Below are positions 4,694 through 62,944 of a stretch of DNA of 64,000 nt, in pieces. Position numbers and translations under genes: made by a program. Numbering within the stretch: the first letter of the stretch is position 1; each line of letters opens with the position of its first letter. A model generated the notes under the pieces. The model did not search any database. It was given only the letters and a program-made list of their open reading frames with translations, and was not told the DNA's origin. The stretch comes from a virus: IMG/VR virus record IMGVR_UViG_3300042465_003568, positions 1-64,000 of that record; one strand, 5' to 3'.

Positions 4694-4730
4694 AATATAA
4701 ATTTAAGACTATTTAATGAAATAAATTAGA

Positions 4731-5072: not shown

Positions 5073-5094
5073 AACCATTTTACTTTATTTTTTA

Positions 5095-5370: not shown

Positions 5371-5372
5371 TT

Positions 5373-5585: not shown

Positions 5586-5604
5586 AGTTTATTTGTTTTT
5601 ATTA

Positions 5605-6063: not shown

Positions 6064-6087
6064 AACTTTTATTTTAATTGTTTTTGA

Positions 6088-37041: not shown

Positions 37042-37056
37042 AACTGTTTATTTTAG

Positions 37057-37140
37057 TACCTAAGATGGGATTCGAACCCATACGGGCTTTCAGCCCATTT
37101 GATTTTAAGTCAAACGCGTATACCGTTCCGCCACTAAGGT
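37057..37140 (-). tRNA. tRNA-Leu (UAA anticodon)
   Basis: 84 nt on the minus strand. Acceptor ACCTTAG/CTTAGGT has one T-T mismatch at pair 5, followed by discriminator A. The D-stem is GCG/CGC. The anticodon stem TTTGA/TCAAA has loop CTTAAAA with anticodon TAA. The long variable arm TGGGCTGAAAGCCCG is typical of Leu, and the T-arm is ATGGG/CCCAT with TTCGAAT. CCA is not encoded. Reads UUA codons, frequent in this AT-rich genome. Confidence 0.9.
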
Positions 37141-37146
37141 ATAAAG

Positions 37147-37302
37147 CTATCAGAGAAGGATTCGAACCTTCACGCAGTGATTCGGTAAGAGACAAAATAG
37201 CCGGCTTGTGGTCAACCCATATCCATTTACCTATTTCAAACTCTGCGCCCGCGAGACGGGCGGGTGTGTCTGCCATACTCTAGAGTGTTTCACCATCTGA
37301 TA
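37147..37302 (-). tRNA. Oversized tRNA-like element (uncertain)
   Basis: A perfect 7-bp acceptor TATCAGA (37302-37296) with TCTGATA (37154-37148), discriminator G, and a perfect T-arm GAAGG/CCTTC with TTCGAAT. The body is 156 nt. Position 8-9 is TG, and a GTG/CAC D-stem encloses a 22-nt loop with the palindrome ACTCTAGAGT. A strong CGCCCG/CGGGCG hairpin stands where the anticodon arm should be. A roughly 65-nt stretch closed by CGCAG/CTGCG follows. It resembles a Leu-type tRNA with insertions, an intron-bearing tRNA, or a tRNA mimic. A protein-like frame across it is not coding. Confidence 0.45.
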
Positions 37303-37380
37303 ATCTATTATCTAAATATAATACTAAATCTTCTAATTTATTAAATAGATCTTTTGAGTATATTAATTAATTTGTAAGAG

Positions 37381-37451
37381 ATGTTCCTTTAGGATTCGAA
37401 CCTAAACTAAGTGGACCAAAACCACTTGTGCTACCGTTACACCAAGAAACA
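37381..37451 (-). tRNA. tRNA-Gln (UUG anticodon)
   Basis: 71 nt. Acceptor TGTTTCT/AGGAACA (two wobble or A-T rich pairs), anticodon stem AGTGG/CCACT with loop TTTTGGT and anticodon TTG, T-arm TTAGG/CCTAA with TTCGAAT. All standard tRNA features are present; CCA is not encoded and the discriminator is T. Reads CAA glutamine codons. Confidence 0.9.
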
Positions 37452-38576: not shown

Positions 38577-39815
38577 TTATAAATTTAACTTGCTTCCTAT
38601 CATAAATGAATTAAGAATTGGCAATTCTTTATTTGTGCTGATTAATACTTTAAAGTTTACGTTTACTTTAAATTTTCTAGTTAATTTAAAATCAGTAGCA
38701 AATCCAGTTAAAAACATGAGGCTCCTATCTCTAAGTTCTGTTTTGTTAGTAAAAGAATAGCTATATGGAGAACTGATCATAAATATATCCGGGATTATGA
38801 TTTTTCTTTTAAACTGTATTGGACGCATAGCAAAACATATAATTGACGGGGCTAAGCTATATTGACCTGTATTTAATAGTGTGCTGTTAAAACTAATATT
38901 ATATCCAGTGATTAATTTATCGATAGGTTGCACATAGGTATATGCAGCAAACATCATATGATTTTTAAAATCTGTAAAGTATGTATTACTAAATGTGTGT
39001 ACTGCTTCTAATTGACCTACGCTATTTGTTTCATTTTTACTATATCTAGCTCCAATTGCAATTTTACTAAGGTCCATAAATATAGTTGATGATATACCCC
39101 AACTAGACATTCCAGTAAATGATGATTGAGAAATTCCTACATTCATAGTAGGTACTATATTTTTTTGTGGAGGTTGTTCTGCAAAAGATAAATCAGCAGA
39201 TACTATAACAGGATTTATTGATTGAAGTTTTTCTTTTTTGCTATCTTTCTTTTCTTCTTTCTTTTCTTCTTGTTTTTGCTCTTCTTTTTTTTCTTCACTT
39301 TTAGATTCACTCTTACTTTCACTCTTACTTTCAGTTTTAGATTCAGAAGATGTACTTTTAGATTCAGAAGATGTTGAACTAGAAGATCCGCTAGAAGATG
39401 AACTTGTAGATGGAGAAGCAGAAGGACTAGAAACAGAGGCTGATGCGCTAGATGATGCTGAACTAGAAGCGGCGCTTGAGGCGGCTGAACTTGCAGCCGA
39501 TGATGCAGCCGATGATGCAGCTTGAACTGCAGATTGTGTAACTACTTGAGCAGTTTGTTGATTAACAGGACATGGCTTAGAAAATATAGACTTTATCCAT
39601 AAGTCTACTGAACCAGATCTAAAATCGTTTACTGTAAATATTTTGCTCTCACTTCTAATTACAATTAGAACTCCAATATTTGTTAGTGGAAAAGATACTG
39701 TATAAATCTTATTATCACAAGGATCAACATAGACGTTTGTAATAGTTTGGCTTTTAGCATTACCGGCTAATAATATTAAAACTAATATTGTTAAACTTGT
39801 AATCCATGTTTTCAC
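38577..39815 (-). CDS. Outer-membrane beta-barrel protein with low-complexity linker
   Basis: 412 residues. A signal peptide (1-22, LVLILLAGNAKSQ) is followed by a small beta domain (about 25-85). A linker of Ala/Ser repeats passes into Ser/Glu/Lys repeats (about 95-195). The C-terminal about 210 residues have alternating beta strands (MNVGISQSSF, WGISSTIFMDLSKIAIGARY) and end FMIGSKLNL, typical of an outer-membrane barrel. The linker could cross periplasm or peptidoglycan. It follows the CsgG-family gene by 4 bases, suggesting a paired envelope function. Confidence 0.65.
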   Translation of the reverse strand: MKTWITSLTILVLILLAGNAKSQTITNVYVDPCDNKIYTVSFPLTNIGVLIVIRSESKIFTVNDFRSGSVDLWIKSIFSKPCPVNQQTAQVVTQSAVQAASSAASSAASSAASSAASSSASSSASASVSSPSASPSTSSSSSGSSSSTSSESKSTSSESKTESKSESKSESKSEEKKEEQKQEEKKEEKKDSKKEKLQSINPVIVSADLSFAEQPPQKNIVPTMNVGISQSSFTGMSSWGISSTIFMDLSKIAIGARYSKNETNSVGQLEAVHTFSNTYFTDFKNHMMFAAYTYVQPIDKLITGYNISFNSTLLNTGQYSLAPSIICFAMRPIQFKRKIIIPDIFMISSPYSYSFTNKTELRDRSLMFLTGFATDFKLTRKFKVNVNFKVLISTNKELPILNSFMIGSKLNL

Positions 39816-39819
39816 TTAA

Positions 39820-40548
39820 CTAGTTTTTGAATATTGCTTTTTTAATCATTCTATCTAATATATTTGCGCATGCTATGTCTAAAGCTTTTTTAGTAGCAAT
39901 AGAAATGGTAGATTGATTAAACTTAATAGGATCTATAGAATCATCTGAAAGTAATGTTAACTCTCTAGTAGTTTTTGCTTCGCCTAATCCTGATGCACCA
40001 AAGACTATCCCTGTTTCTGCATTAGTAAAACGTACTTGTAAACCAAGTCTAGTTACCATATTATCTTTAATCCCATCTTTTAAATTAATAGTTTCGTCTT
40101 CTGATATAGAATAGTCATAAACTTCAATAGTTACGAAGTATTCAGCTAAGTTAATTTTACCTCTGCCATCTAATTTATTCTCACTAATACCAGCTTGAGA
40201 AGCCTGGAATTGTTTTACCATTCTATTTTTAATCTCAGTTTTATCTTCTGTAAATTTAAACCTATTTAAGTTTTCTAAATATTCCATAGAAATATTAGCA
40301 ACTCCTAAACCAACTCTCTTTTCTTTAAGTTCAGGATACATTTCGTATATTTCGTCAGAAATACCGCATTTTAATATTTGAATTGGAATCTGAGGTCCTT
40401 CGTAATCAAGGTAGGCAGATATATCTTTCTTTTTTTCAAAATCTGCTTTAAACTCTTCTGTTTTTGTAGATCCTATTACTTGACAGCGTGCTGTTTTATT
40501 TAGTAGAAATATGTTTAATAGACATAAAATCACTATAAAGTATTTCAT
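39820..40548 (-). CDS. CsgG-family secreted/envelope protein
   Basis: 242 residues with an N-terminal signal segment (MKYFIVILCLLNIFLLN). VGLGVANISMEYLENLNRF (about 78-96) and AEYFVTIEVYDYSISEDE (about 136-153) fit CsgG, as does VTRLGLQVRFTNAETGIV followed by FGASGLGEAK (about 168-195). CsgG forms the curli export pore of the outer membrane. A classical lipobox is not clear (a Cys at about 22 has no LxxC). It probably acts with the barrel protein downstream. A 7-bp inverted repeat and a TATATTTATAC box precede the start. Confidence 0.65.
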   Translation of the reverse strand: MKYFIVILCLLNIFLLNKTARCQVIGSTKTEEFKADFEKKKDISAYLDYEGPQIPIQILKCGISDEIYEMYPELKEKRVGLGVANISMEYLENLNRFKFTEDKTEIKNRMVKQFQASQAGISENKLDGRGKINLAEYFVTIEVYDYSISEDETINLKDGIKDNMVTRLGLQVRFTNAETGIVFGASGLGEAKTTRELTLLSDDSIDPIKFNQSTISIATKKALDIACANILDRMIKKAIFKN

Positions 40549-40550
40549 AT

Positions 40551-40570
40551 TACGTAGTTTTATCTACGTA
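40551..40570. promoter_or_regulatory. Perfect inverted repeat in the CsgG-gene leader
   Basis: TACGTAG (40551-40557) and CTACGTA (40564-40570) form a 7-bp hairpin with six-base loop TTTTAT. It lies directly upstream of the ATG at 40548 and just downstream of a TATATTTATAC promoter-like box. It could be an operator or an mRNA hairpin. Confidence 0.5.
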
Positions 40571-40576
40571 TAAATA

Positions 40577-40601
40577 TAAAAAAAGGGAGTATTTAGCTCC
40601 C
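40577..40601 (-). terminator. Rho-independent terminator
   Basis: On the minus strand GGGAG-CTAAATA-CTCCC followed by seven T. It sits ten bases after the stop of the beta-helix lipoprotein gene at 40611, separating it from the CsgG gene. Confidence 0.75.
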
Positions 40602-40610
40602 TAATATTTA

Positions 40611-41813
40611 TTAATGTCCCTTATTTGGGAATCTAGTCCATCCAACTGTCCAACCAGGTTTTGACAGTGTTTCCATTTCGTTTTTAGTATAAGACACTTC
40701 TTTATTTCCTTGACTCAATGCTTTTGTTTTCATTTCTGATGCAATTATTACAGCAGATGTAGATCTAAAATTTTGTAATGGATCAAATGCTTGTACTTCG
40801 TTATTTTCAAACTTGCTGACTCCATCTTTATAAGCTTGAGCAGTTTCATTTGACTCTATACTAAAGCCGCCTTTCATGTAACCTAGTATCTTGGAGTTAG
40901 TTATTGTGAATTGGGTGGCTCTCCTCCACCTCAATCCTAAGTTATGATTGGTTATTGAGTTAGCATCAAAAGGGCCTACCAGAATCATCCCAATTAGCTT
41001 TGGGTGAGTAAATGGCTGCGCGCTTGATCCTGTTCCATCATTATCGCATTCTACACCATTACCAGCATCTCCATTATCTACAAATTGAGGATCGCGTTTT
41101 GATACTCCGTTTGTTACAGTTCCAGTATATCCAAAGTCAAAGTCGAAGTCATCGTCTGCTGTAGCATACGCATATAAGTTCTTAGGTGATACTGTGCCTC
41201 CAAAAAATTCAAAGGCATCGTCGTTAGCGTAGATAGTTTGGACATTTTCGATTGTAGTACCTGATCCTACTGCACCTAAAGTTAATCCATTGATTTCTGA
41301 GTTTGGTAGTGCAGCTATGCCTGCATATTCTATACGAATATACTTTAATATACCACTATTATCATTATCATTCATACCACCATAAGGTCTACCAATACCA
41401 CCTTCAATAGTTGGTTCAGCCGATCTATTTGTTTTAGCGCGGCCTAGTATTACAATACCTCCCCAATCTCCAGGAGTTTTTTCTCCTTCAGGTTTTCCTG
41501 ATGTAAACACGATAGGTTTTGATACGGTTCCTTCTGCAATTATTTGTGCGCCTCTTTCAATACATAGTGCACCTTTCTCAGCAATATCACTTATTATAGT
41601 AGTGCCAGGCTGAATGATTAATCTAGCACCATCAGTTACATACACGTATCCTTTGAGTGTCCATACTTTGTCTGATGTTAAAGTAGTTGTAGTATTAATG
41701 TTACCACTCAATGTAGTTACAGAAGGTACGTTGATAGGTTGCGCGTCGCCGCCTAGTTCTTTAGTGCAACTGAAGATACTGGTAGCAATTAGTAATAAGA
41801 AAAGCTTTTTCAT
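40611..41813 (-). CDS. Lipoprotein with beta-helix fold
   Basis: 400 residues. Signal peptide and lipobox ATSIFSC put the lipidated Cys at about 16. The mature part (LTSDKVWTLKGYVYVTDGAR, IIQPGTTIISDIAEKG, IVFTSG...DWGGIVILGRA) is a right-handed beta-helix type common in Bacteroidota surface lipoproteins. Those are often encoded beside TonB receptors; in such pairs the lipoprotein captures a ligand. A TonB receptor gene lies 4 bases upstream by overlap, so the pair is probably co-transcribed. Confidence 0.7.
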   Translation of the reverse strand: MKKLFLLLIATSIFSCTKELGGDAQPINVPSVTTLSGNINTTTTLTSDKVWTLKGYVYVTDGARLIIQPGTTIISDIAEKGALCIERGAQIIAEGTVSKPIVFTSGKPEGEKTPGDWGGIVILGRAKTNRSAEPTIEGGIGRPYGGMNDNDNSGILKYIRIEYAGIAALPNSEINGLTLGAVGSGTTIENVQTIYANDDAFEFFGGTVSPKNLYAYATADDDFDFDFGYTGTVTNGVSKRDPQFVDNGDAGNGVECDNDGTGSSAQPFTHPKLIGMILVGPFDANSITNHNLGLRWRRATQFTITNSKILGYMKGGFSIESNETAQAYKDGVSKFENNEVQAFDPLQNFRSTSAVIIASEMKTKALSQGNKEVSYTKNEMETLSKPGWTVGWTRFPNKGH

Positions 41814-44062
41814 AAGTTTACGTTTAGTGTTAATGAGACTGTTTGTTCATTGTTTATTTTTATTAAGTCGCCTCTATTCTTTTGATAATATCTAGAAGGC
41901 TGAGCTAATACATCTGATATGGCTAATTTTATTTCAGCTTTCTTTATCTTTCTAAGATACACAATATCTACTACGTCTCTAGAATTTTCAAATATATCTG
42001 AATAACCTTGAAAACCTACTGCAGATATTCTATCTCCGACTCTATTGTATGTTACATTTAATGTGTTAGAGTTTTTGTGTAAATTTAATCCTCCATTGAT
42101 AATATAATTAGACTGACCTTGTAGTTGTCTTTTAGATCCATTTACATTTACTTGTGATGTCATGATCGATGTATTAGCGTAGAAGTCCATCCAGCAAGTC
42201 ATTTTCTTTCTTACTTCTATTTCTACACCATACAAATGTGCTTGATCTGGGTTCATATAAGTTAACAGTAAGTTTGAAGGAACAGATCCATCTGCTACGA
42301 TTTGTTCGATAGGTTTTATGAATTGCTTACCAAATACTCCAATAGATATTGTTTCACCGGCTTTAGGATAGTATTCCCATTTTAGATCTATATTGTAAAC
42401 ATCAGACTTTTCTAATTTCGAGTTACCTAGTAGTTGTGCATTTCTAATAAAGTCATAGTAAGCAAAGTTAGCTACTTCTCTAAATTCTGGTCTTGCTAAG
42501 GTTTTGCTTATAGAAAACCTCTTCTTAATTCTGTCTACTGTTTTTGATATATTTAATGAAGGTAAAAAGTCTAAATACTTTCTGTCTACATTTACTTTTT
42601 GCCCACTAAAATCTGCTGTGTTAACTGTGAATACATTATACTCTGTTCTTAGGCCCGTGTTTAACTTCCAGTCTCCAAACTCTCTATCGTACATGATATA
42701 ACCAGTCATCAAATCGAAATCAGCTTTATATCTGTCTGTGTTGTTTGTTATTTCGTTCATCAAGTCAGAAGCTTCGTATCTAAATACTCTTGCTTGAAAC
42801 TGTCTAATCTTTTTTAAATAATTAGAACCTATCTTAATATTGTTAAATTGTTTGTTAACGCTTGCATTGAAACTATTTTCATTCATTACACTCCAAAATC
42901 TGTAAGTATCTCTCCAAGCTATGGAATAGTTTTGATTTGTTCCTAATGATTTAGTAATAGGATTTACTCTATAATCAGGTTGATCTCTCAACATTAAGTT
43001 ATAACCTATATTAAAATCAACAGTCTTGATCTTAGTATCGAATTGAGAATTAAGAACAGTCTTTACTATTTTATTACTCGATGTACTTCTAACGTCTTGA
43101 ACGTTGTCGTAGTTCTCACCGAACCTGGTAAGATAGGATTGTTCTGTTTGATGATTGAATAAAGTTTTTAGACTATATCTATACTTTCCTATGTAAGTAA
43201 TATTCAAAAGAGAATTAACAGATTCTATTTGTGTGTAAGAAGTGTCTCTGTATTTGTACGCAAGCTCTGTAGAAGATTGATAGTCTAATCTATCGATGTA
43301 ATTTAAAGTGTGAGATCTCCTTCCTGTAGAACTCAATAAAGCATTCCATTTATTTTTATTAATTCCAAATGAAAGTGATCCATTATAATTAGGGCTAGAT
43401 GTAAAACTTTTTGGTTCATAAGATTGAAGCATCTTTGTGTATGCTCTTCTATCTCCTAAACTACCGACTCTAAAGTTATACGTAGAAGGAAACGCGGAAG
43501 GGAATTTAGCTCCTTGTACTAACTTGAAGCCTTTCGAAGTTGAAACTAAACCCCAACCGGTTCCTAGAGAAATATTTAAAAAACTATTAGATACATCTTT
43601 AGTTGTTATTTGAATTAATCCGCCAGAAAAATCTCCGGGTAGATTTGCTGCAGCAGACTTTGCTACAACTATATTGTCTATTAAGTTAGAAGGAACTATA
43701 TCAAAAGAGAAAGCTCTTCTATCTGGTTCTGTTGATGGAAGCAGGGTTTTATTTAGTAAGGCTGAATTGTATCTATCCGCTAGCCCTCTAACTAAAACGA
43801 ATTTATCGTTTTGAATAGTAACTCCGTTAATTCTTTTTAAAGCATCACCTACAGTTCTATCAGGAGTCTTTTTTATATACTCTATAGATATTCCGTCTGA
43901 TACTACAGAACTATTTTTGATGGAGTTAATTACCGCTAAATTACTTTCTTTCTTGGCTACTGACTTTACTGTTATCTCTCTTAAATTTTTATTGAAAACT
44001 GTATCTTGAGAGTATGCTAAAATAGGAAACAGCGAAACAAAAATAAAAAACGACTTAATCAT
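41810..44062 (-). CDS. TonB-dependent outer-membrane receptor
   Basis: 750 residues. Signal peptide 1-19 (FVSLFPILAYSQ) and a plug domain of about 35-150: TVGDALKRINGVTIQ (about 70-84) then RGLADRYNSALLNKTLLPST and PGDFSGGLIQITTKD (about 142-156). A C-terminal barrel ends TVSLTLNVNL. It lacks the carboxypeptidase-like N-terminal domain of SusC proteins and is short for that group. Such receptors import iron chelates, vitamins or glycans with host TonB. A phage copy is unusual and could also be a substitute phage receptor or exclusion factor. 110 AT-rich bases precede it. Confidence 0.8.
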   Translation of the reverse strand: MIKSFFIFVSLFPILAYSQDTVFNKNLREITVKSVAKKESNLAVINSIKNSSVVSDGISIEYIKKTPDRTVGDALKRINGVTIQNDKFVLVRGLADRYNSALLNKTLLPSTEPDRRAFSFDIVPSNLIDNIVVAKSAAANLPGDFSGGLIQITTKDVSNSFLNISLGTGWGLVSTSKGFKLVQGAKFPSAFPSTYNFRVGSLGDRRAYTKMLQSYEPKSFTSSPNYNGSLSFGINKNKWNALLSSTGRRSHTLNYIDRLDYQSSTELAYKYRDTSYTQIESVNSLLNITYIGKYRYSLKTLFNHQTEQSYLTRFGENYDNVQDVRSTSSNKIVKTVLNSQFDTKIKTVDFNIGYNLMLRDQPDYRVNPITKSLGTNQNYSIAWRDTYRFWSVMNENSFNASVNKQFNNIKIGSNYLKKIRQFQARVFRYEASDLMNEITNNTDRYKADFDLMTGYIMYDREFGDWKLNTGLRTEYNVFTVNTADFSGQKVNVDRKYLDFLPSLNISKTVDRIKKRFSISKTLARPEFREVANFAYYDFIRNAQLLGNSKLEKSDVYNIDLKWEYYPKAGETISIGVFGKQFIKPIEQIVADGSVPSNLLLTYMNPDQAHLYGVEIEVRKKMTCWMDFYANTSIMTSQVNVNGSKRQLQGQSNYIINGGLNLHKNSNTLNVTYNRVGDRISAVGFQGYSDIFENSRDVVDIVYLRKIKKAEIKLAISDVLAQPSRYYQKNRGDLIKINNEQTVSLTLNVNL

Positions 44063-44170
44063 TATTAAGGATTGTTAGTACCTTTATAATTATTAAGCCG
44101 CTTTTTAGGTGGGCTATTTATTGTGTTATTAAATTATTAACTAATTTTAAAATTTTTATTAATTAACTTT

Positions 44171-44410
44171 TTACTCTCCACTTTTTTTATTTATAAATTT
44201 ATCAACAGAAGCTATACCAAAGCAAGCGATTGTTAATATTTTAAATGAATCAAAAATAAACTCATTTATAAGTAGCGGTTTATTCATAGCTCCTGTTATG
44301 ATGTCTGTAATAGCAAACATACACATCATTAAGAAAGCTGCGAATCCTATAACTGCTTTTTCATTGATAGAATTACTATCATTGAAAAGATCGTGAAAAA
44401 ATTTTTTCAT
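44171..44410 (-). CDS. Holin-like small membrane protein
   Basis: 79 residues with two hydrophobic helices, about 20-42 (VIGFAAFLMMCMFAITDIIT) and about 52-70 (DSFKILTIACFGIASVD), and a basic C-terminal KFINKKSGE. Size and layout fit class II holins that puncture the inner membrane for lysis. Its place one gene from an EF-hand protein and three from an endolysin supports the role. Confidence 0.6.
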   Translation of the reverse strand: MKKFFHDLFNDSNSINEKAVIGFAAFLMMCMFAITDIITGAMNKPLLINEFIFDSFKILTIACFGIASVDKFINKKSGE

Positions 44411-44450
44411 TTCAATAATTTTAATTTATTTAATATCGATAACTTTATTC

Positions 44451-44873
44451 TTACTCTTTTATTTTTCCGCATTTTAAACATTCCAAATCACCATCATTAT
44501 CAAAATCTCCCCAAACGTGTTCACATTGTCTATGCGCGAAGTACTCATCAATTTTACCATCGCCATCGAAATCTAATCCATCCATTACACCATCTCCATC
44601 TTCATCAATTTCAACGCACCCTCTTGCTTCGGCACTTACACCCACTTCTGCGGTTGCTGCAACAGATGTATCCGTTATCTCAACACCCACACTTGCGTGA
44701 GCCTCACCAGTAACCTCAACGGTTAATTCTACACCATCAACAGTAGTACTTACTGAAGATGAATCTTCAACACTCGCACCATCTTGTGGGTCTGCAGTGA
44801 TTTGGCCACCACCAGTTTCAAATCCAATTTTTAGACCGTTATCTTCCTGTGCTTTTTTTACTTCTTCTGACAT
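44451..44873 (-). CDS. Calcium-loop and zinc-ribbon protein
   Basis: 140 residues. The N-terminal about 80 residues are a Thr/Ser/Val/Ala-rich beta stretch. Residues about 92-112 hold two DxDxDG-type loops (DEDGDGVMDG and DFDGDGKIDE) and residues about 114-140 hold CEHVW...DNDGDLECLKC, which mixes a third acidic loop with a zinc ribbon. It is likely metal-stabilised and may be a virion or cell-wall contact protein. It lies in the lysis gene block. Confidence 0.55.
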   Translation of the reverse strand: MSEEVKKAQEDNGLKIGFETGGGQITADPQDGASVEDSSSVSTTVDGVELTVEVTGEAHASVGVEITDTSVAATAEVGVSAEARGCVEIDEDGDGVMDGLDFDGDGKIDEYFAHRQCEHVWGDFDNDGDLECLKCGKIKE

Positions 44874-44888
44874 ATTTTTAATATTATA

Positions 44889-45197
44889 TTACCACAGCGG
44901 TTCTTTTTCTTTAAATTCGTCTCCTTCTTTTTTCTTAGGTTTAGCTGTAGCTTCTTTTACTGTTTCTTTTTCTTTAATAATAATAGTTTTCCCTCCAGCT
45001 GCTTGCTGCTGTTGTTGAGTATTGTTAATAATAATACTAGGTTGAGCTTGTACTGGTTGAGCGGTATCGTTTCCGCCACCAAACAATGTTGATCCTAACC
45101 AAGCCCCACCGGCTGTTACAACTGTAGCTAACGTACCTACAATAGTTTTTTTTAGCCCAGTCCAAGTTCCTTCTTGCTGATTTGTTTCTTCTGACAT
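44889..45197 (-). CDS. Single-pass membrane protein in lysis cassette
   Basis: 102 residues. One hydrophobic stretch, about 14-36 (TIVGTLATVVTAGGAWLG), is followed by Gln/Ala-rich and Lys/Glu-rich tails (KPKKKEGDEFKEKEPLW). The layout fits a spanin- or holin-accessory protein with a periplasmic coiled or flexible end. It starts three bases after the endolysin gene. Confidence 0.55.
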   Translation of the reverse strand: MSEETNQQEGTWTGLKKTIVGTLATVVTAGGAWLGSTLFGGGNDTAQPVQAQPSIIINNTQQQQQAAGGKTIIIKEKETVKEATAKPKKKEGDEFKEKEPLW

Positions 45198-45199
45198 AG

Positions 45200-45802
45200 T
45201 TAACTGTTTAAAAGGTTATAGTATTCTTTAAAATGTTTAATTCTATCTGGAAGTCCAATTGTACCTCCATTTACTCTTTTTGTTACTTTAGTAACTACTA
45301 AATCACTGGCTCCTTCATCTGCTATTTTATGTAAGCTATTTTTATAAAAGAACCACGCTGCAGAAGCTAAAGGATATTTTGTAGCTACTAAATCAGGATT
45401 TGCTACACAATCTTCTCCAATAGATTTTGAGAACGCAGTATAGTTATCTTTTCCTGTAAGTTGTATAAATCCTCTTCCTTTAAATTTAGATCCATCACCA
45501 GAAGTTTCAGAACCGTTACCCATTCTACTAGCGTATACTTTATTTGCTATTTTATCAGGCTGTCTTTGATATTGATTAGCCACTGCTTCTGTAGGAAAAT
45601 ACTTCTTAAATATTCCCATCAAACCTTTACTAGAATAATTTAAATTTTCTTTCAAGAATTTAAATCCTCCTGATTCATGTCCGCACTGTGCTAAAAAGTG
45701 AGCGAGTCTAATTGGAGTATTTAATTCAAATTTAGCTATTGTGTCTGGTATTTGGGCTAGTACTTGATCTGGGATATGCCCTTTTAATTTTTGTATATTC
45801 AT
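45200..45802 (-). CDS. GH19-type endolysin (chitinase-like lysozyme)
   Basis: 200 residues. LAHFLAQCGHESGGFKFL (about 33-50) contains the catalytic Glu of family 19 (HESGGF). FKGRGFIQLTGKDNY (about 107-121) is the GRGxxQLTG signature, and AWFFYKNSLHKIADEG follows. These phage enzymes cleave peptidoglycan to release virions. No signal peptide is present, so it depends on a holin. It is the main enzyme of the lysis block at 44171-45802. Confidence 0.9.
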   Translation of the reverse strand: MNIQKLKGHIPDQVLAQIPDTIAKFELNTPIRLAHFLAQCGHESGGFKFLKENLNYSSKGLMGIFKKYFPTEAVANQYQRQPDKIANKVYASRMGNGSETSGDGSKFKGRGFIQLTGKDNYTAFSKSIGEDCVANPDLVATKYPLASAAWFFYKNSLHKIADEGASDLVVTKVTKRVNGGTIGLPDRIKHFKEYYNLLNS

Positions 45803-45808
45803 AAATTA

Positions 45809-46168
45809 TTACTTTTTGATTATTATATTTGTTTTATATTCAGTGCCTTGAATGTCTATAAGTATTAAATTATAGTCGCCATTTTTAAGATCAGAAAAAT
45901 CTAACTTTTTTGTTACATTAGAACTTTCTGCAGTAAAACCTAATATTTTTAATTCTTTTCCAAGTAAATTTGTTACCTGGAGTGAATACTTGGCGTTTGT
46001 AGTTAACGTCATGTCAACTACTATATTTGAGCCATTTGAAACAATTGGAGAAACTTTGTTAATAACAGATGCTTTGGGAATAGCACCTAATTCTATTTTT
46101 AGAGGCTCAATTTGTATTTTTGTGCATCCAACAAATATAAATATCAAGATGTATAGTAGCTTTTTCAT
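45809..46168 (-). CDS. Lipoprotein carrying a T9SS-like C-terminal domain
   Basis: 119 residues. Signal peptide and lipobox IFVGC put the lipidated Cys at 15. The last about 80 residues follow the type A T9SS sorting-domain pattern: SPIVSNGSNIVVDM, then YSLQVTNLLGKELKI and DFSDLKNGDYNLIL, ending IIIKK. Such a domain normally follows a long secreted protein; here it is attached almost directly to a lipid anchor. It could be a mimic or a decoy, or the host family may be broader than this. It lies two bases after the cohesin-like gene. Confidence 0.6.
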   Translation of the reverse strand: MKKLLYILIFIFVGCTKIQIEPLKIELGAIPKASVINKVSPIVSNGSNIVVDMTLTTNAKYSLQVTNLLGKELKILGFTAESSNVTKKLDFSDLKNGDYNLILIDIQGTEYKTNIIIKK

Positions 46169-46169
46169 A

Positions 46170-47939
46170 TTAATTAAAGTTATTGTATCCGGTTAATTTT
46201 ATGGACTGAGTATTTAAATTGATTCCTAACTGATTGCCATTATTGTCTGAAGCATCCAGGTTCGAGGTTATTTGTATTTTAGTATTCAGATCTAACCCGT
46301 TTTCGAGTGCCGAGAATTTTAGTTTAAATGGTAGTGATGCGCCTATTATAGAATTTTTAAGATCTTTGTCTATAGCTCCAAATTTTATTTTACCTTCTTT
46401 AGAATTAGCAAATACATACCATGAATTAGGTACTTCAGATTTAATATCCTCAAATTTTACTTTAGTATTATCATAGACAAATTCAAATTGTATTGCAGAT
46501 ACATTATTTCCTTTAGTGTCTAAATTTATAGGAATTTCTATATTGTTTGATGTGATAACTATATTTTTTAAATTAACATCTATATAAGAAACATTTTTAA
46601 TATCATTAAAACCATATGCAGCATTTGAAAGCCCAGATAATAACAAACTATTTTTTGCGGTTGTTATAGTTTGTCCATTTAATACAACTTGAGAAGAGTG
46701 AGACCTATTTATATCTCCTGGTACTATATATTTTAAATCAACTGTATCAGCCACACTTTTAGTTTTGAACTTAACTTTAAAAGAGTTCATATCTGTAAGT
46801 GTTAGTTGCAAAGCTTCATCTACACCAACATTGTCAAAATAGTTTTTTGTGAATATAGGCAAATTAGTAATATTAGAATTAGCTTGGCTATTAAATATAG
46901 TGTCCGCTCCTACTGCTTGAGCAAAAAGTAAGGCTAAATCTCCTCCGTCAAACTTTTGATTTCTATTAACATCTGCTGCAAAAAAACTCATTCCTGATGT
47001 CATTGAAATTTTATTAAATGTTCCATCAAGGTTTTGTTTAATAAATTCATTTTGTGCTGCTGTGTAATCTGATACTGTTACAGCTCTAGATAGTATGCTC
47101 CCTAAACTATCTGAAGGGATCCATGCGGATGCATAATAAGTTGTATTAGGCAAAATCTCACTAGATAAATTATAAGATCCATTAGTACCAACTGATCTAC
47201 TTGCTCTTAGTATATTATTAGTAGAATCTGTAAAAGCTAGTGTAGGCTTTAAATTACCAAATAAATTTCCGTTGACTTGAAAAGTTCCGCGAATTAGTGC
47301 ATTTAAATTGGGATCTAGATTAATCCAAGCAGAATTAGGTTTGGGCATTGTAATTGTCATTTCTTGACCTGAGTTACTCCATCCGTATGCAAAGTTATAA
47401 TAAATAGAATCATAAGCAAAACCTGCTTGGATATTAACTACTTTAAAACGAAGATAACAAAGAACACCATTGTTCAGTTGTGTCATATTACCATTAGGAG
47501 TGGCAGTATTAATGTTAATACGATTAATAGCTTTAGTTTGTCCTTGTGCATATTGATACTGCGCATTTTGTGAATTTTGCAAACCATTCTCGGTATTATT
47601 GTTTGCATTATTAAACCAATTATATCCTGGATAGTAATTATTAGAAAACGAAGTTTGAGTTCCAATAGGAATAGCTTCTGTTCCTGATTGTGGAAACACA
47701 ATTCCTATCATACTGATAGCCGATATTTGATGTTGGAAGTCAAGATAAAAGTTTCTTATATTAGAGTTATTATTCTTTAATACAAGAGCGACTTCAACTG
47801 TATCATCTTTTTCAATGGCTCCGCCATTAATATCTGTAGTTATTAAGTTAGGCCAGATTTTAAGTTCTGGTGGTGTATTCTGGCTATAGGATGAAAAAGC
47901 AACTATAAAAGTAGCTAAAAGCAAAATTATTTTTTTCAT
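46170..47939 (-). CDS. Large secreted protein with dockerin- and cohesin-like parts
   Basis: 589 residues. A signal peptide (1-19, VAFSSYSQ) is followed by a beta-rich N-terminal half. About residue 318 there is a dockerin-like calcium loop (ADVNRNQKFDGGDLALL), and PGDINRSHSS near 410 may be a second, poorer one. Residues about 465-585 resemble a cohesin-type beta sandwich (NIEIPINLDTKG, IQFEFVYDNTKVKFE, IKITSN-like strands). It is likely surface-exposed. It pairs with the T9SS-domain lipoprotein gene downstream. The family assignment of each part is tentative. Confidence 0.5.
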   Translation of the reverse strand: MKKIILLLATFIVAFSSYSQNTPPELKIWPNLITTDINGGAIEKDDTVEVALVLKNNNSNIRNFYLDFQHQISAISMIGIVFPQSGTEAIPIGTQTSFSNNYYPGYNWFNNANNNTENGLQNSQNAQYQYAQGQTKAINRININTATPNGNMTQLNNGVLCYLRFKVVNIQAGFAYDSIYYNFAYGWSNSGQEMTITMPKPNSAWINLDPNLNALIRGTFQVNGNLFGNLKPTLAFTDSTNNILRASRSVGTNGSYNLSSEILPNTTYYASAWIPSDSLGSILSRAVTVSDYTAAQNEFIKQNLDGTFNKISMTSGMSFFAADVNRNQKFDGGDLALLFAQAVGADTIFNSQANSNITNLPIFTKNYFDNVGVDEALQLTLTDMNSFKVKFKTKSVADTVDLKYIVPGDINRSHSSQVVLNGQTITTAKNSLLLSGLSNAAYGFNDIKNVSYIDVNLKNIVITSNNIEIPINLDTKGNNVSAIQFEFVYDNTKVKFEDIKSEVPNSWYVFANSKEGKIKFGAIDKDLKNSIIGASLPFKLKFSALENGLDLNTKIQITSNLDASDNNGNQLGINLNTQSIKLTGYNNFN

Positions 47940-47943
47940 ATTT

Positions 47944-48573
47944 TTAATCTAGTAATTTAGTAATCAACGCAACACAGGTTTTCTTAACTGCATTTCTCAT
48001 GACCGTTGAATTAAATTGACCAGATTCAGAAATCAATAATGTTGAGGTGGAGATTTCTGAAGACTCATCTGTGACAGTTTGTCTTTTGATGATCTTACCT
48101 TTATTGTCTAATAGTACTCCTTCCATTCTAATGATGACAGCGTTTTCATCTTTGTGGAATATAGACACATTGGTATTAGTTTGTTTTTGATCCATATAAA
48201 CTATATTTGCACTGATCAAAAACTCGGCGTCTTCTTTGTTTGTTAAATTATAACCTTTATCTTGAGCAACTTCTTCTATAATATTTTTAACTCCAAAAGC
48301 TAGATTTTTGTTACCTGTCATCGGACCTATTTTCACACTATTTACAACAGTATTAATGTAGATCGTTTTATATTGCGCAGAGAATGCGCTAGATTTACTA
48401 AAAGTTCCGTCAAATTTATGTATATACCAAGTATTAATTGACGTAGCTATATTTTTAAACCCAGAAAAATCTAAAACTATTAAGCTAATTTGTAAAAATA
48501 GTCCTAGAAGGACAAAAGATATAATTAACTTTAGAAATAATTGTTCTAAAAGAATATATATATACTTATTCAC
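47944..48573 (-). CDS. Membrane-anchored protein, possibly CsgG-like
   Basis: About 209 residues from a GTG start at 48573 (VNKYIYILLEQ); a TTG 12 codons upstream is also possible. One long hydrophobic stretch near the N terminus (LKLIISFVLLGLFLQISLI) is followed by a soluble domain. There, FGVKNIIEEVAQDKGYNLT and AEFLISANIVYMD have the shape of CsgG/LptE-like envelope proteins. The exact family is unclear. A TATTTATATAA box lies close upstream. Confidence 0.5.
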   Translation of the reverse strand: MNKYIYILLEQLFLKLIISFVLLGLFLQISLIVLDFSGFKNIATSINTWYIHKFDGTFSKSSAFSAQYKTIYINTVVNSVKIGPMTGNKNLAFGVKNIIEEVAQDKGYNLTNKEDAEFLISANIVYMDQKQTNTNVSIFHKDENAVIIRMEGVLLDNKGKIIKRQTVTDESSEISTSTLLISESGQFNSTVMRNAVKKTCVALITKLLD

Positions 48574-48628
48574 TCTATAATTGGTTATATAAATAAATAT
48601 CAAAACCAATTATTAATTTATAAAGTAT

Positions 48629-48886
48629 CTATTTAAATTTAGCCAAAGTTGATTTAAGTTGATCTTTAGACATAACTCCAGAACTTCTGAACAGGGTATT
48701 TCCTGCATGATCTACAACTACAATAGTTGGAACTGCGCTAATTTCATACTTTTGAGAAAAAGTAGTATCATAATCAACGTTAATATCGTTTATAGAAATA
48801 CCTAAATCTCTTGAAACTTCTTGAACAATAGGCTTAAAAACTTTACACGGTCCACACCATGGAGCTGAGAAATACAAAACTTGCAT
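48629..48886 (-). CDS. Thioredoxin
   Basis: 85 residues, slightly shorter than bacterial thioredoxin. FSAPWCGPCKVFKPI (7-21) is the active-site WCGPC, and ISAVPTIVVVDHAG (about 50-63) includes the cis-Pro. It reduces disulfides in the cytoplasm; phage thioredoxins can serve nucleotide reduction or assembly. It sits next to a secreted nuclease gene, one base apart. Confidence 0.9.
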   Translation of the reverse strand: MQVLYFSAPWCGPCKVFKPIVQEVSRDLGISINDINVDYDTTFSQKYEISAVPTIVVVDHAGNTLFRSSGVMSKDQLKSTLAKFK

Positions 48887-48887
48887 A

Positions 48888-49532
48888 TTACTTTATTTTA
48901 AATTTTAAATTCGTTAACTTTTCTACTTCTTCTATTGTTACTTTGTTATCTTCTATACCGTTAGGTTTAGATTGATCATTTTGAAAGATATAAGCTAGCC
49001 AACTATTAGAACTCTTTATGTATAAAACTTTCCAACACTTTTCAGGAATAGATAGTCTTCCTACCTTCTTGGCCTCTCCTACTGATCCTGTCCATATTTT
49101 TATAGAGTCTTGAGCTTTTGCCCACTCTCTAGTTTTCATCTCTAGTATCTTCCAGTCTCCTCTATTCAATGATCCGTATTGTGGAGTCATATTTGAAAAG
49201 TAGAAAGACTCTTTCATAGCATCAGGCCCAGAACATTGATTATCGGCTGCTGGGGCCATGTGGCCGCGATCAAAGCCAGATCCAATATAATCTTTAGCTA
49301 TGTTTGTTTCAGCCTCTAGAAGTGGATCAGGTACAAACTGGTCTTTTCTTGGTATTGGATTTGTACACGATACTTTTTGCTTGGTTAACCACCACTCCAC
49401 AAGTACTGGATACTTTAAAGATTTAGAAAATACTGTAGTATACTCTTTATGATTTAACCTTACTGTATCTTGTGCCTTTAATGACACACTAAAAAAAAGA
49501 ACTATTGCAATTGAGTATAATAATTTAAACAT
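48888..49532 (-). CDS. Secreted DNA/RNA non-specific endonuclease (NUC1)
   Basis: 214 residues with a signal peptide (1-20, YSIAIVLFFSVSLKAQ). FDRGHMAPAADNQ (about 89-101) is the DRGH catalytic motif of the beta-beta-alpha metal nuclease family, with a metal-binding Asn nearby (SNMTPQYGSLNRGDW). It would act in the periplasm or outside the cell, degrading foreign or host nucleic acid. An exported nuclease in a phage is uncommon. The final bases of the small gene upstream overlap its start. Confidence 0.85.
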   Translation of the reverse strand: MFKLLYSIAIVLFFSVSLKAQDTVRLNHKEYTTVFSKSLKYPVLVEWWLTKQKVSCTNPIPRKDQFVPDPLLEAETNIAKDYIGSGFDRGHMAPAADNQCSGPDAMKESFYFSNMTPQYGSLNRGDWKILEMKTREWAKAQDSIKIWTGSVGEAKKVGRLSIPEKCWKVLYIKSSNSWLAYIFQNDQSKPNGIEDNKVTIEEVEKLTNLKFKIK

Positions 49533-49766: not shown

Positions 49767-51221
49767 TTAAACTATGATTCCGTTAACTACTTTACCAGCT
49801 ACATCGGTAAGTCTATATCTTCTTCCTAAGTGTTTATATGTAAGCGTTTCGTGATCTATTCCCATCAAGTGTAATATTGTTGCGTGGAAGTCATGAACAT
49901 CTACAGGATCTTTTATAATATTGTATCCAAATTCATCTGTTTCTCCATAAACAATACCGGGCTTAATTCCTCCACCTGCCATCCAGATGCTGAAACACTT
50001 TGGATGATGATCTCTGCCATAATTTATAGGATCAATTCTTCCTTGACAAAAGTTTGTTCTTCCAAATTCACCACCCCAGATTACGAGTGTTTCGTCAAGG
50101 AGTCCACGTTGCTTCAAGTCTTTTATAAGTGCTGCTGAAGCGCGGTCTACGTCTTCTGCCTGCATTTTCATATCGTTAACAAGATTGCCATGGGTATCCC
50201 ATCCTTGGTGATAGAGTTGAACAAAACGAACGCCTGATTCAGTTAACTTTCTTGCTAGCAAACAATTCGCAGCATATGTTCCAGGAATTAAACAATCTGC
50301 TCCATACATTTTAATGACATGGTCAGGTTCTTTATTTAAGTCTGTTAATTCAGGAACTGCTGTTTGCATACGATAAGACATTTCGTATTGTTGAATTCTG
50401 GTATTTATCTCAGGATCTCCAAAATTTTGAAATGCTTCGGTGTTAAACTTTGCTAGTTGATCTAGCATATCTCTTCTATTTTGCTTATTGTGTCCTTCTG
50501 GATTTTTAAGATATAATACTGGATCTTCGCCGCTGCTAAACACAACTCCTTGGTGCATACTATCTAAAAAACCATTGCTCCAAAGTTTTGAATATACACC
50601 CTGACCATTGCCGCGTCCACGGGAAAGCAAAACCGTATAAGCAGGAAGATTAGAATTTTCACTTCCAAGTCCATAACTCATCCATGCACCCATACTAGGT
50701 CTATTGCCTTGTTGTGCACCTGTTTGGAAAAATGTTAGTGCAGGATCGTGGTTAATTGCTTCTGTATTCATACTTCTGATGATACAGATATCGTCTGCTA
50801 TTGATCCTATATGTGGAAATAAACTTGATATAGAAGCACCTGATTGTCCGTACTGATTGAAACCAAATGCAGAGCCTACCAATGGGAACTTATCTTGGTT
50901 TGCAGTCATGCCAGTTAACCTTTGCCCATTTCGTATTGAGGCAGGTAGATCTTGACCATGCATTGTATTCAATAGAGGTTTGTGATCAAAGGTTTCAAGT
51001 TGAGACGGTGCTCCATTTTGAAACAAGTATATAACTCGTTTTGCTTTTGGTGCAAATTGTGCAATACCAAGTGGTAAAGATTTAACTTCTCCACTAGATC
51101 CAAACAATTGATCTTTGAATAGCATGGTTCCTAAAGCAGCGCTTCCGATACCTAGACCTGCCTTTGTTAGAAAATGCCTTCTAGTAATGTTTAGTCTAAA
51201 CTGTTTTTCTTGGTTTTCCAT
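49767..51221 (-). CDS. Tat-exported DUF1501 (alkaline-phosphatase-fold) protein
   Basis: 484 residues. NITRRHFLTKAGLGIGSAAL (about 9-28) is a twin-arginine signal with a hydrophobic segment. The body matches DUF1501: FQNGAPSQLETFDHKP, MNTEAINHDPALTFFQTG (about 156-173), and near the C terminus WGGEFGRTNF and DHHPKCFSIWMAGGG. The family, related to sulfatases and phosphatases, is common in Bacteroidota and Planctomycetota; its substrate is unknown. The phage context is very unusual. The gene has its own terminator, an ATATTTATTAGT start box and slightly higher GC than its neighbours. Confidence 0.8.
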   Translation of the reverse strand: MENQEKQFRLNITRRHFLTKAGLGIGSAALGTMLFKDQLFGSSGEVKSLPLGIAQFAPKAKRVIYLFQNGAPSQLETFDHKPLLNTMHGQDLPASIRNGQRLTGMTANQDKFPLVGSAFGFNQYGQSGASISSLFPHIGSIADDICIIRSMNTEAINHDPALTFFQTGAQQGNRPSMGAWMSYGLGSENSNLPAYTVLLSRGRGNGQGVYSKLWSNGFLDSMHQGVVFSSGEDPVLYLKNPEGHNKQNRRDMLDQLAKFNTEAFQNFGDPEINTRIQQYEMSYRMQTAVPELTDLNKEPDHVIKMYGADCLIPGTYAANCLLARKLTESGVRFVQLYHQGWDTHGNLVNDMKMQAEDVDRASAALIKDLKQRGLLDETLVIWGGEFGRTNFCQGRIDPINYGRDHHPKCFSIWMAGGGIKPGIVYGETDEFGYNIIKDPVDVHDFHATILHLMGIDHETLTYKHLGRRYRLTDVAGKVVNGIIV

Positions 51222-60387: not shown

Positions 60388-62004
60388 TTACATTCCCATA
60401 CCCATCATAGGGTCGGCTTTTTCATCTTTGTCTTTTTTTTCAAATACAACTGATTCTGTAGTTAGAATTGTTCCGGCAACGGATGCAGCATTCTTGAGGG
60501 CGGTAATAACCACCTTTGCTGGATCAATGATACCTGCTTCAAGAGCATTCACTATTTTGTGACTCTTTGCATCGTATACTTGGCCTTCGCCTGGGATATT
60601 CTCGAACCAGTTTTCTACTCCGGCATTACTCAAGATCTTCTTGAATGGTGATTGAAGTGCGGTTCTTACAATGTCTCTAGCAATAGCAACATTTGAATTG
60701 CTCTCTGCTCTATGGTTTAATGATACTCTGTAAAGAGTTGCACCACCACCTGGAACAATGCCGTCTGCAAGTGCAGCTTTAGTTGCGAACAAGGCGTCTT
60801 CTACACGATCTTTCTTTTCTTTGATCTCAATATCACTATTTCCACCAACAGAAATGATCGCAACACCACCGACTAGTTTACCTAATCTCTCTTGTAGCTT
60901 TTCTCTCTCATAGAAAGAGGTTGCCTTTTCTATTTGCTCTTTAATTTCTATCGCTCTATTAGCCAAAGCTGTTTCATCACCTTTACCATCAATGATAGTA
61001 GTCTCTTCTTTAGAAACCGTGATAAGTCTAGTTGATCCAAGATACTGAGCTAGTTGTTGCGTAGATAGTTTATCAAGCTTTAAACCTTTGTCTTTAGAGA
61101 TAACTTGGCCGCCGGTCAAGATAGCAATGTCTTCAAGGATCAAAGTCTTACGCTCACCAAAGTCTGGTGCTTTAACTGCGCAAACTTGTACGATGCCACG
61201 CATCTTATTAACAATGAGTGTAGCAAGTGCTTCATCTCCAATGTCTTCAGCGATGATCAACAAAGGTCTATTCTCAGAGTTAGCTTTAGTTAGTACTTGT
61301 AGTAGCTCTTGAGCTGTAGAAATACGACCATCATAAAGTAGTACATAAGGATTGTCAAGCACGGCTTGCATCGTTGTGTTATTAGTCACAAAATAAGGTG
61401 ACTTATAACCACGATCAAACTGCATACCTTCTACGATCTCGAGTGTTGTTTCACCAGACTTAGACTCTTCAATAGTAACCACACCTTCACGACCTACTTT
61501 ATCAATAGCTTCGCTGATAAGGTTACCTACTTCTGAATCGTTATTACCTGATATAGTTGCAACTTGTTTGATTTGCTCTTCTGAAGATATTTCGATTGCC
61601 ATATCTTTTATTTCTTGCACGATTTCATTTACAATCTTATCGATCTCATTCTTGATCTCTACTGCATTAGATCCTTGACGAATCTCTTTCAAGCCTGCTT
61701 TAACAAGCTCTGTAGCGATCAATGTAGATGTTGTTGTACCATCACCTGCTTCATTTGCACTTTTAATACTAACTTGTTTAACTAGCTGCGCTCCAAGGTC
61801 TTCGATATCATCTTCTAACTTGTGGAATGCTTTTGCAACTGTTACTCCGTCCTTAGTAACTTTAACTTCACCAGATTGTTCTCTGATTAAAACAGTTCTA
61901 CCACCTGGACCTAATGTAGATGTAACTGACGCATTTAGCTTTTCTATGCCTGACAGAAGCTTTTCTTTAAGCTCTGTTCCGAAAACATTTTTTGTTGTAC
62001 TCAT
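60388..62004 (-). CDS. groEL: GroEL-type chaperonin (60 kDa)
   Basis: 538 residues, near full length. LGPGGRTVLI (about 32-41), KDGVTVAKAF, and AGDGTTTSTLIATEL (about 86-100, ATP/metal Asp) belong to the equatorial domain. KAPDFGERK (about 278-286) and GGVAIISVGG are apical and intermediate parts. VEDALFATKAALADGIVPGG (about 392-411) includes the catalytic Asp. The C terminus ends MMGMGM as in bacterial GroEL. It forms the folding chamber with the GroES partner encoded 11 bases upstream. Phage chaperonins exist in some large phages; here the protein looks closer to bacterial ones. Confidence 0.95.
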   Translation of the reverse strand: MSTTKNVFGTELKEKLLSGIEKLNASVTSTLGPGGRTVLIREQSGEVKVTKDGVTVAKAFHKLEDDIEDLGAQLVKQVSIKSANEAGDGTTTSTLIATELVKAGLKEIRQGSNAVEIKNEIDKIVNEIVQEIKDMAIEISSEEQIKQVATISGNNDSEVGNLISEAIDKVGREGVVTIEESKSGETTLEIVEGMQFDRGYKSPYFVTNNTTMQAVLDNPYVLLYDGRISTAQELLQVLTKANSENRPLLIIAEDIGDEALATLIVNKMRGIVQVCAVKAPDFGERKTLILEDIAILTGGQVISKDKGLKLDKLSTQQLAQYLGSTRLITVSKEETTIIDGKGDETALANRAIEIKEQIEKATSFYEREKLQERLGKLVGGVAIISVGGNSDIEIKEKKDRVEDALFATKAALADGIVPGGGATLYRVSLNHRAESNSNVAIARDIVRTALQSPFKKILSNAGVENWFENIPGEGQVYDAKSHKIVNALEAGIIDPAKVVITALKNAASVAGTILTTESVVFEKKDKDEKADPMMGMGM

Positions 62005-62015
62005 AATGATTTTGT

Positions 62016-62309
62016 TTATTCGATAACTGCAAATATATCTGATTCTTTACAAATGAAATAGTCTTGTCCATCAAGTACTACTCTTTGTGATCCTAGTTTA
62101 GGAATCAACACGACATCTCCAACTTGTAGAGTTGAAATAACTAGCTTGTCTGTGTTATAGTTGTAGACATCAGATGTTCCAACTACTTCTCCCATTTCAG
62201 GTCTTTCTTTACCAAGGTCTGGAATAATTATATTACCAAACGTTTCTTCTTCTGTTTCTATAGGCTTCAATAATATAAAGCCATTTAGAGGGGTTATTTT
62301 TTTATCCAT
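62016..62309 (-). CDS. groES: GroES-type co-chaperonin
   Basis: 97 residues. ITPLNGFILLKPIETEEETF (about 5-24), GEVVGTSDV and VGDVVLIPKLGSQRVVLDGQ (about 63-82) are the core beta-barrel; the mobile loop that docks to GroEL (about 20-32) is GNIIIPDLGKE. It caps the folding chamber of the neighbouring GroEL. The two genes probably form one transcript. Confidence 0.9.
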   Translation of the reverse strand: MDKKITPLNGFILLKPIETEEETFGNIIIPDLGKERPEMGEVVGTSDVYNYNTDKLVISTLQVGDVVLIPKLGSQRVVLDGQDYFICKESDIFAVIE

Positions 62310-62313
62310 AATG

Positions 62314-62508
62314 TTAATTTACAATTTCTAATTCATTTATTTTAACACAAAAATAGAGTAGGCCATCTTTTTTGAAGACACCTTCTACTCCATACCAAAT
62401 TTTAAAGTCGTCTAGGTTTTTGCCGTTTACGAACTCTTCTCTTAGGATTTTTTTGACTTCAAATAAGTCACCATTGATGTCAATAAAATTTCTGTGCAGT
62501 TGAAACAT
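62314..62508 (-). CDS. Hypothetical small protein in chaperone operon
   Basis: 64 residues, beginning MFQLHRNFIDINGDLFEVKK, beta-rich (IWYGVEGVFKKDGLLYF). No recognised domain. It lies between GroES and Hsp20 genes, so it may have a related role, but this is only positional. Confidence 0.6.
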   Translation of the reverse strand: MFQLHRNFIDINGDLFEVKKILREEFVNGKNLDDFKIWYGVEGVFKKDGLLYFCVKINELEIVN

Positions 62509-62536
62509 AACTAAGGTTGTGAGTAGGCCTTTTTTT

Positions 62537-62944
62537 TTACTTAATTTTTATTTGCTTTACAGCCGTACCTTCTGCTGTAGGAACTGTTATAATTAGCAGT
62601 CCTCTATCTAAGGAAGCTTCTAGTTTGTTTAGATCAAACTTAGTTGAAATTTTCCAAGTAAGATTAAAAGATGATCTCTTAATACCTCTGTATATTGGAG
62701 ACTCTTCAGGCTTATTTGGTTTCTCGTATGTAATTCGTAATTGATCACCGTCGACAATGATATCTATATCGTTCTTGTCTAGGCCTACTGCGGCTACTTC
62801 AAATCGAATGCCGTCTTCTGTTTCAAAAATGTCTACTGGATGTGATATCTTCTGCGTAATTGCAGAAAAGTGTGGTGCTGATTCAAAGAGATCTTTCCAG
62901 AGCAAGTCAAATGGATCGAGCTCGAATGGTCTTAATATTCCCAT
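62537..62944 (-). CDS. Small heat-shock protein (Hsp20 family)
   Basis: 135 residues. HPVDIFETEDGIRFEVAAVG (about 36-55) and LDKNDIDIIVDGDQLRITYE (about 56-75) are the start of the alpha-crystallin domain. RSSFNLTWKI (about 90-99) and LEASLDRGLLIITVP (about 109-123, with the conserved GxLxIxxP motif) complete it. It binds unfolding proteins and passes them to chaperonins. A promoter-like TATATTTATAT box and 130 bases of AT-rich DNA precede it. First gene of the chaperone run. Confidence 0.9.
   Translation of the reverse strand: MGILRPFELDPFDLLWKDLFESAPHFSAITQKISHPVDIFETEDGIRFEVAAVGLDKNDIDIIVDGDQLRITYEKPNKPEESPIYRGIKRSSFNLTWKISTKFDLNKLEASLDRGLLIITVPTAEGTAVKQIKIK

Follow-up and report, generated by a model that had tools for sequence, protein, structure and literature searches.

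Closest described systems

In PUSIV of Flavobacterium johnsoniae, a gene for a TonB-dependent transporter (TBDT) in the phoBR cluster, Fjoh_0545 (pf07715, pf13715, pf14905), is followed by Fjoh_0546, which encodes a lipoprotein with the pectin-lyase fold (IPR011050); both genes respond to phosphate shortage with strong induction, their values in the low-phosphate table being 8.02 and 9.91, taken here as log2 (PMC8115612). We report a phage gene pair that resembles Fjoh_0545/0546 in consisting of a Plug plus OMP_b-brl_3 receptor and then a beta-helix lipoprotein. The pair lies in a stretch of 64,000 nucleotides (positions 1 to 64,000, hereafter the window) of the 91,160-base IMG/VR virus record IMGVR_UViG_3300042465_003568. 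In our opinion, it is likely to be a phage-carried phosphorus-scavenging pair controlled by host PhoB, and the hosts of the large phages that carry it are probably Bacteroidota. Its features are as follows.

41810 to 44062, minus strand: TonB-dependent receptor, 750 amino acids (Pfam Plug, 1.8e-07; OMP_b-brl_3, 3.1e-20)
40611 to 41813, minus strand: beta-helix lipoprotein ("FII" type), 400 amino acids, assigned by its relatives, fold model and 4-nt overlap with the receptor gene
44124 to 44141, minus strand: Pho-box-like direct repeat (11 bp) whose start lies 79 nt ahead of the receptor ATG; the motif comes from bacteria

Pho control is a likely further resemblance to PUSIV. The phage pair differs from PUSIV in its location on phage genomes, in the absence of PhoBR from the neighbouring genes compared, in its 4-nt overlap and in its shorter proteins, and the window receptor differs from Fjoh_0545 in having no pf13715 domain.

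The Caulobacter low-phosphate lipoprotein with which the F. johnsoniae proteins have been compared is presumably ElpS. Proteins FI, FII and FIII show 31–36% identity to it (PMC8115612). ElpS of Caulobacter crescentus resembles the proposed phage lipoprotein as a low-phosphate surface lipoprotein; unlike it, ElpS is Proteobacterial and is released by a type II system, and the two are likened by description (PMC2996285). It is chiefly in cyanophages that phages are known to control the phosphorus supply of their hosts (PMC10976474); there, pstS and other genes provide phosphorus or answer host PhoBR. The cyanophage parts are inner-membrane or periplasmic and belong to cyanobacteria, whereas the window pair would be an outer-membrane TonB system (PMC10976474).

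Like the window phage, the megaphages Mar_Mega_1 and LR745206 carry a putative TonB receptor, "SusC", which their authors read as serving carbohydrate uptake (PMC9723777); within the open-licence literature searched, this was the only report of a phage TonB receptor. The receptor of LR745206 (634 kb) is 26% identical to that of the window. In L256, at 2503–6343, it is preceded by a beta-helix protein matching the family profile at 1.5e-97, that is, in the reverse order from the window pair, with the partner gene upstream. This protein is 40% identical to the bacterial rows versus 38% to the viral clade described below, and this slight closeness to bacteria hints at a second gain. The motif score upstream of the LR745206 receptor is weak (5.4). 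In view of this beta-helix partner, the role in carbohydrate uptake ascribed to the megaphage receptor should be reconsidered. An annotated phage collection gave five receptor matches at 26–30% identity, four of them in faecal "Bacteriophage sp." entries.

The receptor and its lipoprotein partner

By Pfam, the window receptor has no pf13715/CarboxypepD_reg-like N-terminal domain, which is present in longer phage and bacterial relatives (CarbopepD_reg_2 in the receptors of L156 and L088 and, below cut-off, of L170). The plug weakly matches the colicin I receptor (3.6e-06). By our own reading of the alignment, the phage receptors displayed appear to carry a TonB-box-like stretch ahead of the plug.

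Cys16 of the lipoprotein is invariant across 17 aligned relatives. Together with 88 other positions, it is conserved in 95% or more of 40 viral rows and 90% or more of 32 bacterial rows, a count of 89 positions that leaves out 10 distant bacterial rows. The predicted model (predicted local distance difference test score, pLDDT, 79.8) has structural matches at Z of about 20–22 to alginate epimerases, tailspikes and pectic enzymes, all of which we take to be right-handed beta-helices. The right-handed beta-helix predicted for the lipoprotein indicates a fold class, not a function. Foldseek returned no match for the model at E below 0.001, a PDB sequence search with the alignment gave one chance match (0.73), no Pfam family was matched, and neither Pfam nor NCBIfam gave a SusD match. 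Membership in the SusCD class was rejected, since the partner has a beta-helix fold in place of a SusD match.

The Pho-box-like site

The motif was derived from bacteria. Upstream of 70 bacterial receptor genes, 5-mer repeats at a spacing of 11 were observed 215 times versus 31 expected from a Markov background; the corresponding figures were 26 versus 31 at a spacing of 10 and 59 versus 35 at a spacing of 12. Training on bacterial upstream regions only gave gtTAACATTg.ggTAAcA, i.e., TAACATT-n4-TAACA, an 11-bp repeat. A strong site also precedes 28 other genes of the bacterial loci, 16 of which read as porin-like, metallophosphatase, PiT or PhoB genes.

The motif was then scored in 49 distinct phage upstream regions, obtained from 65 long-enough receptor genes of 80 loci. 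Their median score is 6.8, compared with -1.5 for 895 other phage genes (area under the curve, AUC, 0.864), and 33, 27 and 15 of them exceed the 90th, 95th and 99th percentiles of those genes, respectively. Against 195 intergenic starts the AUC is 0.851, and the 95th and 99th percentiles are exceeded by 23 and 15 regions. Among 100 shuffled sets the highest median was 0.44 (real value, 6.79). The AUC depends on the repeat spacing, being 0.727, 0.872 and 0.728 for spacings of 10, 11 and 12. The position is also regular: of the 23 phage sites above the 95th percentile, 21 lie 66–81 nt ahead of the start and two lie 55 nt ahead of it. The window receptor site scores 8.7 in this family-wide test and 9.4 in a ranking within the phage, where it comes first, by a hair, among 105 open reading frames (ORFs).

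Phosphate genes around the bacterial pair

The best 80 of at least 114 bacterial loci with lipoprotein relatives were used. A receptor of the same family lies near the lipoprotein gene in all 80 and directly upstream of it in 76. In 37 of these 80 loci the pair has one or more of the following nearby: PhoR, PhoB, DUF47, PiT, a porin-like protein and a metallophosphatase. None of 20 control stretches of 20 kb has any of them; the controls were chosen by contig coordinate in the class of G001, in genomes other than those of the 80 loci, and amount to 400 kb versus 1403 kb. Gene orders include PiT-DUF47-porin-TBDT-FII-PhoR-PhoB, and for each of DUF47, PHO4, kinase and regulator Pfam confirmed the single representative checked. 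The PiT count is 22 for single-linkage clusters within 8 genes and 15 at stricter cut-offs over whole loci. The porin name of a 14-locus cluster is likely, not certain: its representative has no Pfam match, and another member matches Porin_O_P below cut-off (0.0032).

Distribution among viruses and origin

A scan of viral contigs with the window receptor found 24 relatives, and one with the lipoprotein alignment found relatives in 128 contigs, the best 80 of which (74–100% identity) were kept. An earlier note on this sequence had called its island of envelope genes phage-borne and rare in phages. The first description is borne out below; the second does not apply to the receptor and beta-helix pair, which is not rare in viral contigs. 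A receptor or a piece of one directly precedes the lipoprotein gene in all 77 viral loci with upstream DNA. The junction is a 4-nt overlap in 74 of them and a 2-nt gap in three (L125, L126 and L128); no such overlap was seen among the bacterial loci, whose pair proteins are mostly longer. The genes around the viral pair vary widely between loci. For both genes, the ratio of nonsynonymous to synonymous substitution rates (dN/dS) is 0.035–0.17 in eight contig pairs, with dS above 1, i.e., saturated, in several. The pair is under purifying selection in viral contigs.

As with phage auxiliary metabolic genes for phosphorus, the cassette is located on virus genomes. Sheath matches were found on 11 and terminase matches on 19 of 50 pair-bearing contigs tested (from the 80 loci), and 26 have at least one of the two; a miss says little, because most of the contigs are fragments. 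PhoH is present on 16 of the same 50. A 162-kb IMG/VR record (L004; G003), which is separate from that of the window and possibly from the same sample, matches the genes of window positions ~32–54 kb at 100% and carries a terminase. The remainder of the 91,160-base record, as read from its ORFs, appears to hold T4-like tail and replication genes.

In a tree of 82 dereplicated lipoprotein rows, made by a quick method, the 40 viral rows occupy one side of a branch (Shimodaira-Hasegawa-like approximate likelihood ratio test, SH-aLRT, 97) and group with Aquirufa L088 (100). By this tree, the viral lipoproteins are one clade, sister to a freshwater Aquirufa. A close copy occurs in three of 38 genomes of this genus, and the gene after it looks alike in all three. 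In L088 this gene belongs to the alkaline-phosphatase superfamily by Pfam, with a PF00245 phosphatase close by; PiT then follows in L088 and L223. The simplest reading would be a single gain from an Aquirufa-like donor followed by spread among phages, the direction being one that we infer.

Eight of the 80 viral loci (L115, L132, L133, L154, L157, L158, L159 and L179) have genes for a family 2 glycosyltransferase (GT2) and a metallophosphatase just downstream of the beta-helix gene. The metallophosphatases of four of them are 39–43% identical to those in bacterial pair loci, and for one the nearest NCBIfam entry is LpxH, below cut-off. A PlcP-like role of these enzymes in phospholipid remodelling is a guess.

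Proposed phosphorus scavenging and its alternatives

We propose that in a phosphorus-starved host PhoB would bind the 11-bp repeat and switch the pair on. The lipoprotein, in the outer membrane and probably facing outward, would capture or trim a phosphorus-containing polymer or ester, and the receptor, powered by host TonB-ExbBD, would import the captured compound. Host phosphatases and permeases would then hand phosphate on to phage DNA synthesis. The analysis establishes the genes and their constant pairing, their conservation under purifying selection, the single viral clade, the Pho-locus surroundings of bacterial relatives and the promoter motif; that PhoB binds, that the lipoprotein is surface-exposed, what is imported and how the phage would gain are inferred. 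On this reading a starving host cell can probably be made to supply the phage with phosphorus. Among three roles suggested earlier for the island, altered import into the infected cell has the most support, and the idea can be narrowed to phosphorus uptake probably governed by the Pho system of the host.

Several points weigh against this proposal. Sixteen of the 49 phage upstream regions fall under the 90th percentile of other genes, the two next-best ORFs of the window phage score 9.4 and 9.3 against 9.4 for the receptor, and 12 of the 28 further bacterial genes preceded by the motif have other identities, including sigma factors. The significance of the motif is overstated because related contigs remain among the 49. 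At the cut-offs used, 43 of the 80 bacterial loci have no Pho gene, and PhoBR was not seen beside the pair among the phage-locus genes compared. Orthology to Fjoh_0545/0546 is putative, being judged by domain content and the order of the genes, and Fjoh_0542 (OprP), in the same cluster and table, was not induced (PMC8115612). The substrate could also be another compound carried by the same type of receptor.

This last point leads to the view of the pair as a generic TonB system for a glycan, siderophore or vitamin, of the kind proposed for the megaphage "SusC" (carbohydrate uptake; PMC9723777). The beta-helix fold common to polysaccharide lyases and epimerases fits such a role, as does the weak plug match to the colicin I receptor. 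We nevertheless consider it unlikely, given the lack of a SusD partner in Pfam and NCBIfam searches, the occurrence of relatives in Pho loci with Pho-box-like promoters and the presence of a beta-helix partner in the megaphage as well. Superinfection exclusion, in which phage-made receptor and lipoprotein would replace the host's own pair and block the phages that bind it, had also been suggested. TonB receptors commonly serve as phage receptors, and the pair is found in many different phages; exclusion would require neither a Pho-box-like site nor a matching beta-helix protein conserved alongside the receptor, and its chances appear slim. Finally, the pair might be accidental bacterial cargo or the product of a chimeric assembly, with no role in the phage, as its closest relatives outside viruses are genes of bacterial chromosomes. 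The viral lipoproteins form a single clade (SH-aLRT 97), the pair occurs in many phage contexts, dN/dS is far below 1 and 26 of 50 contigs have a sheath or terminase match, all of which speaks against cargo. A chimera is very unlikely because of the 100% identical separate 162-kb record, with its terminase, and the recurrence of the pair in many other phage gene contexts; it was set aside, and this explanation as a whole is highly improbable.

If the pair is a phosphorus importer, its presence in 128 viral contigs would extend phage phosphorus control to viruses that infect Bacteroidota and to phosphorus sources taken up through the outer membrane. A direct test of whether host PhoB switches on a phage gene pair in Bacteroidota also becomes possible, and the motif supplies a Pho-box model for this phylum.

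The CsgG-like module

The earlier note had treated four genes as one combination: the receptor, the lipoprotein, a CsgG-like protein and a barrel protein. All four are present on the minus strand where it had placed them, and comparison separates them into two modules. Of 40 dereplicated viral loci, 28 have the pair but no CsgG-like gene in the stretch compared. In the other 12 the two modules lie close together, and they may therefore be linked. In L023 and L025 the genes of the CsgG module are contiguous and the pair flanks them, whereas the window has it between parts of the module. The second module and the phage gene within the island comprise the following.

38577 to 39815, minus strand: linker protein rich in Ala/Ser and Glu/Lys, by sequence reading and alignment; relatives in 26 of 80 viral loci
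39820 to 40548, minus strand: protein of predicted CsgG fold, 242 amino acids; relatives in 18 of 80 viral loci
44451 to 44873, minus strand: 140-amino-acid protein; relative in L025, no Pfam or PHROGs match
44889 to 45197, minus strand: 102-amino-acid protein of no family; relatives in 15 of 80 viral loci
45200 to 45802, minus strand: GH19-type endolysin, a phage gene inside the island (Glyco_hydro_19, 1.1e-09; phrog_181 endolysin, 9.5e-68)
45809 to 46168, minus strand: short protein with a lipobox-like start and a C-terminus like the tail of type IX secretion substrates (Por_Secre_tail 0.00043, below cut-off)
46170 to 47939, minus strand: secreted-type cohesin protein (Cohesin, 3.9e-08); relatives in 17 of 80 viral loci
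47944 to 48609, minus strand: TraT-like protein (TraT 0.00045, below cut-off); relatives in 9 of 80 viral loci

The predicted fold of the 39820–40548 protein resembles the CsgG curli secretion channel. The model is of modest quality (pLDDT 66); its best Foldseek match is CsgG (2.3e-05), and in a structural comparison the eight best entries are all CsgG (Z 9.8–11.0), with the next row at 8.8. Unlike CsgG, the protein has no CsgG Pfam match, and its alignment has no PDB sequence match. No Cys is invariant across 15 aligned relatives, i.e., there is no conserved lipobox, and none of the curli partners CsgA, CsgE and CsgF was found among the neighbours scanned with Pfam, which do not include every gene. 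The linker protein matches no family in Pfam or NCBIfam; its gene is real, and the C-terminal barrel ascribed to it is probable by sequence reading. A label of "holin?" for a small membrane-type protein found no support in PHROGs or Pfam and is not used as evidence for a role in lysis.

It had also been suggested that the island forms an export pore. The CsgG fold is upheld by prediction, and nothing beyond the fold supports export. It is conceivable, if rather doubtful, that these phages rebuild outer-membrane traffic in both directions, with a PhoB-triggered importer and a CsgG-like pore with its linker protein. Such a pore might export surface proteins of cohesin or lectin type or open the outer membrane at lysis, and the metallophosphatase and glycosyltransferase of some phages could free lipid phosphorus.

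Other features of the window

Next to the second module, thioredoxin and secreted-type Endonuclease_NS genes stand side by side (48629–49532, minus strand), an arrangement kept in related phages such as L006, L020, L023, L024, L025 and L027. A gene at 49767–51221 (minus strand) encodes a DUF1501 protein (Pfam 6.9e-156) with a signal of the twin-arginine type; the viral-contig scan matched this protein to the 162-kb sister record only, and the phage collection gave no match. Endonuclease_NS (48888) and DUF1501 (49767) were considered as parts of a Pho-box regulon and rejected, with motif scores of -0.9 and -4.8.

On the other side of the island lie tRNA-Leu (taa) and tRNA-Gln (ttg) genes (37056–37451, minus strand). 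By ORF reading, the region 12879–35101 (minus strand) holds ~20 kb of genes of glycosyltransferase, nucleotide-sugar and methyltransferase type, with an apparently split transketolase at 14931–16027, and GroEL-, GroES- and Hsp20-like genes stand in one row at 60388–62944 (minus strand).

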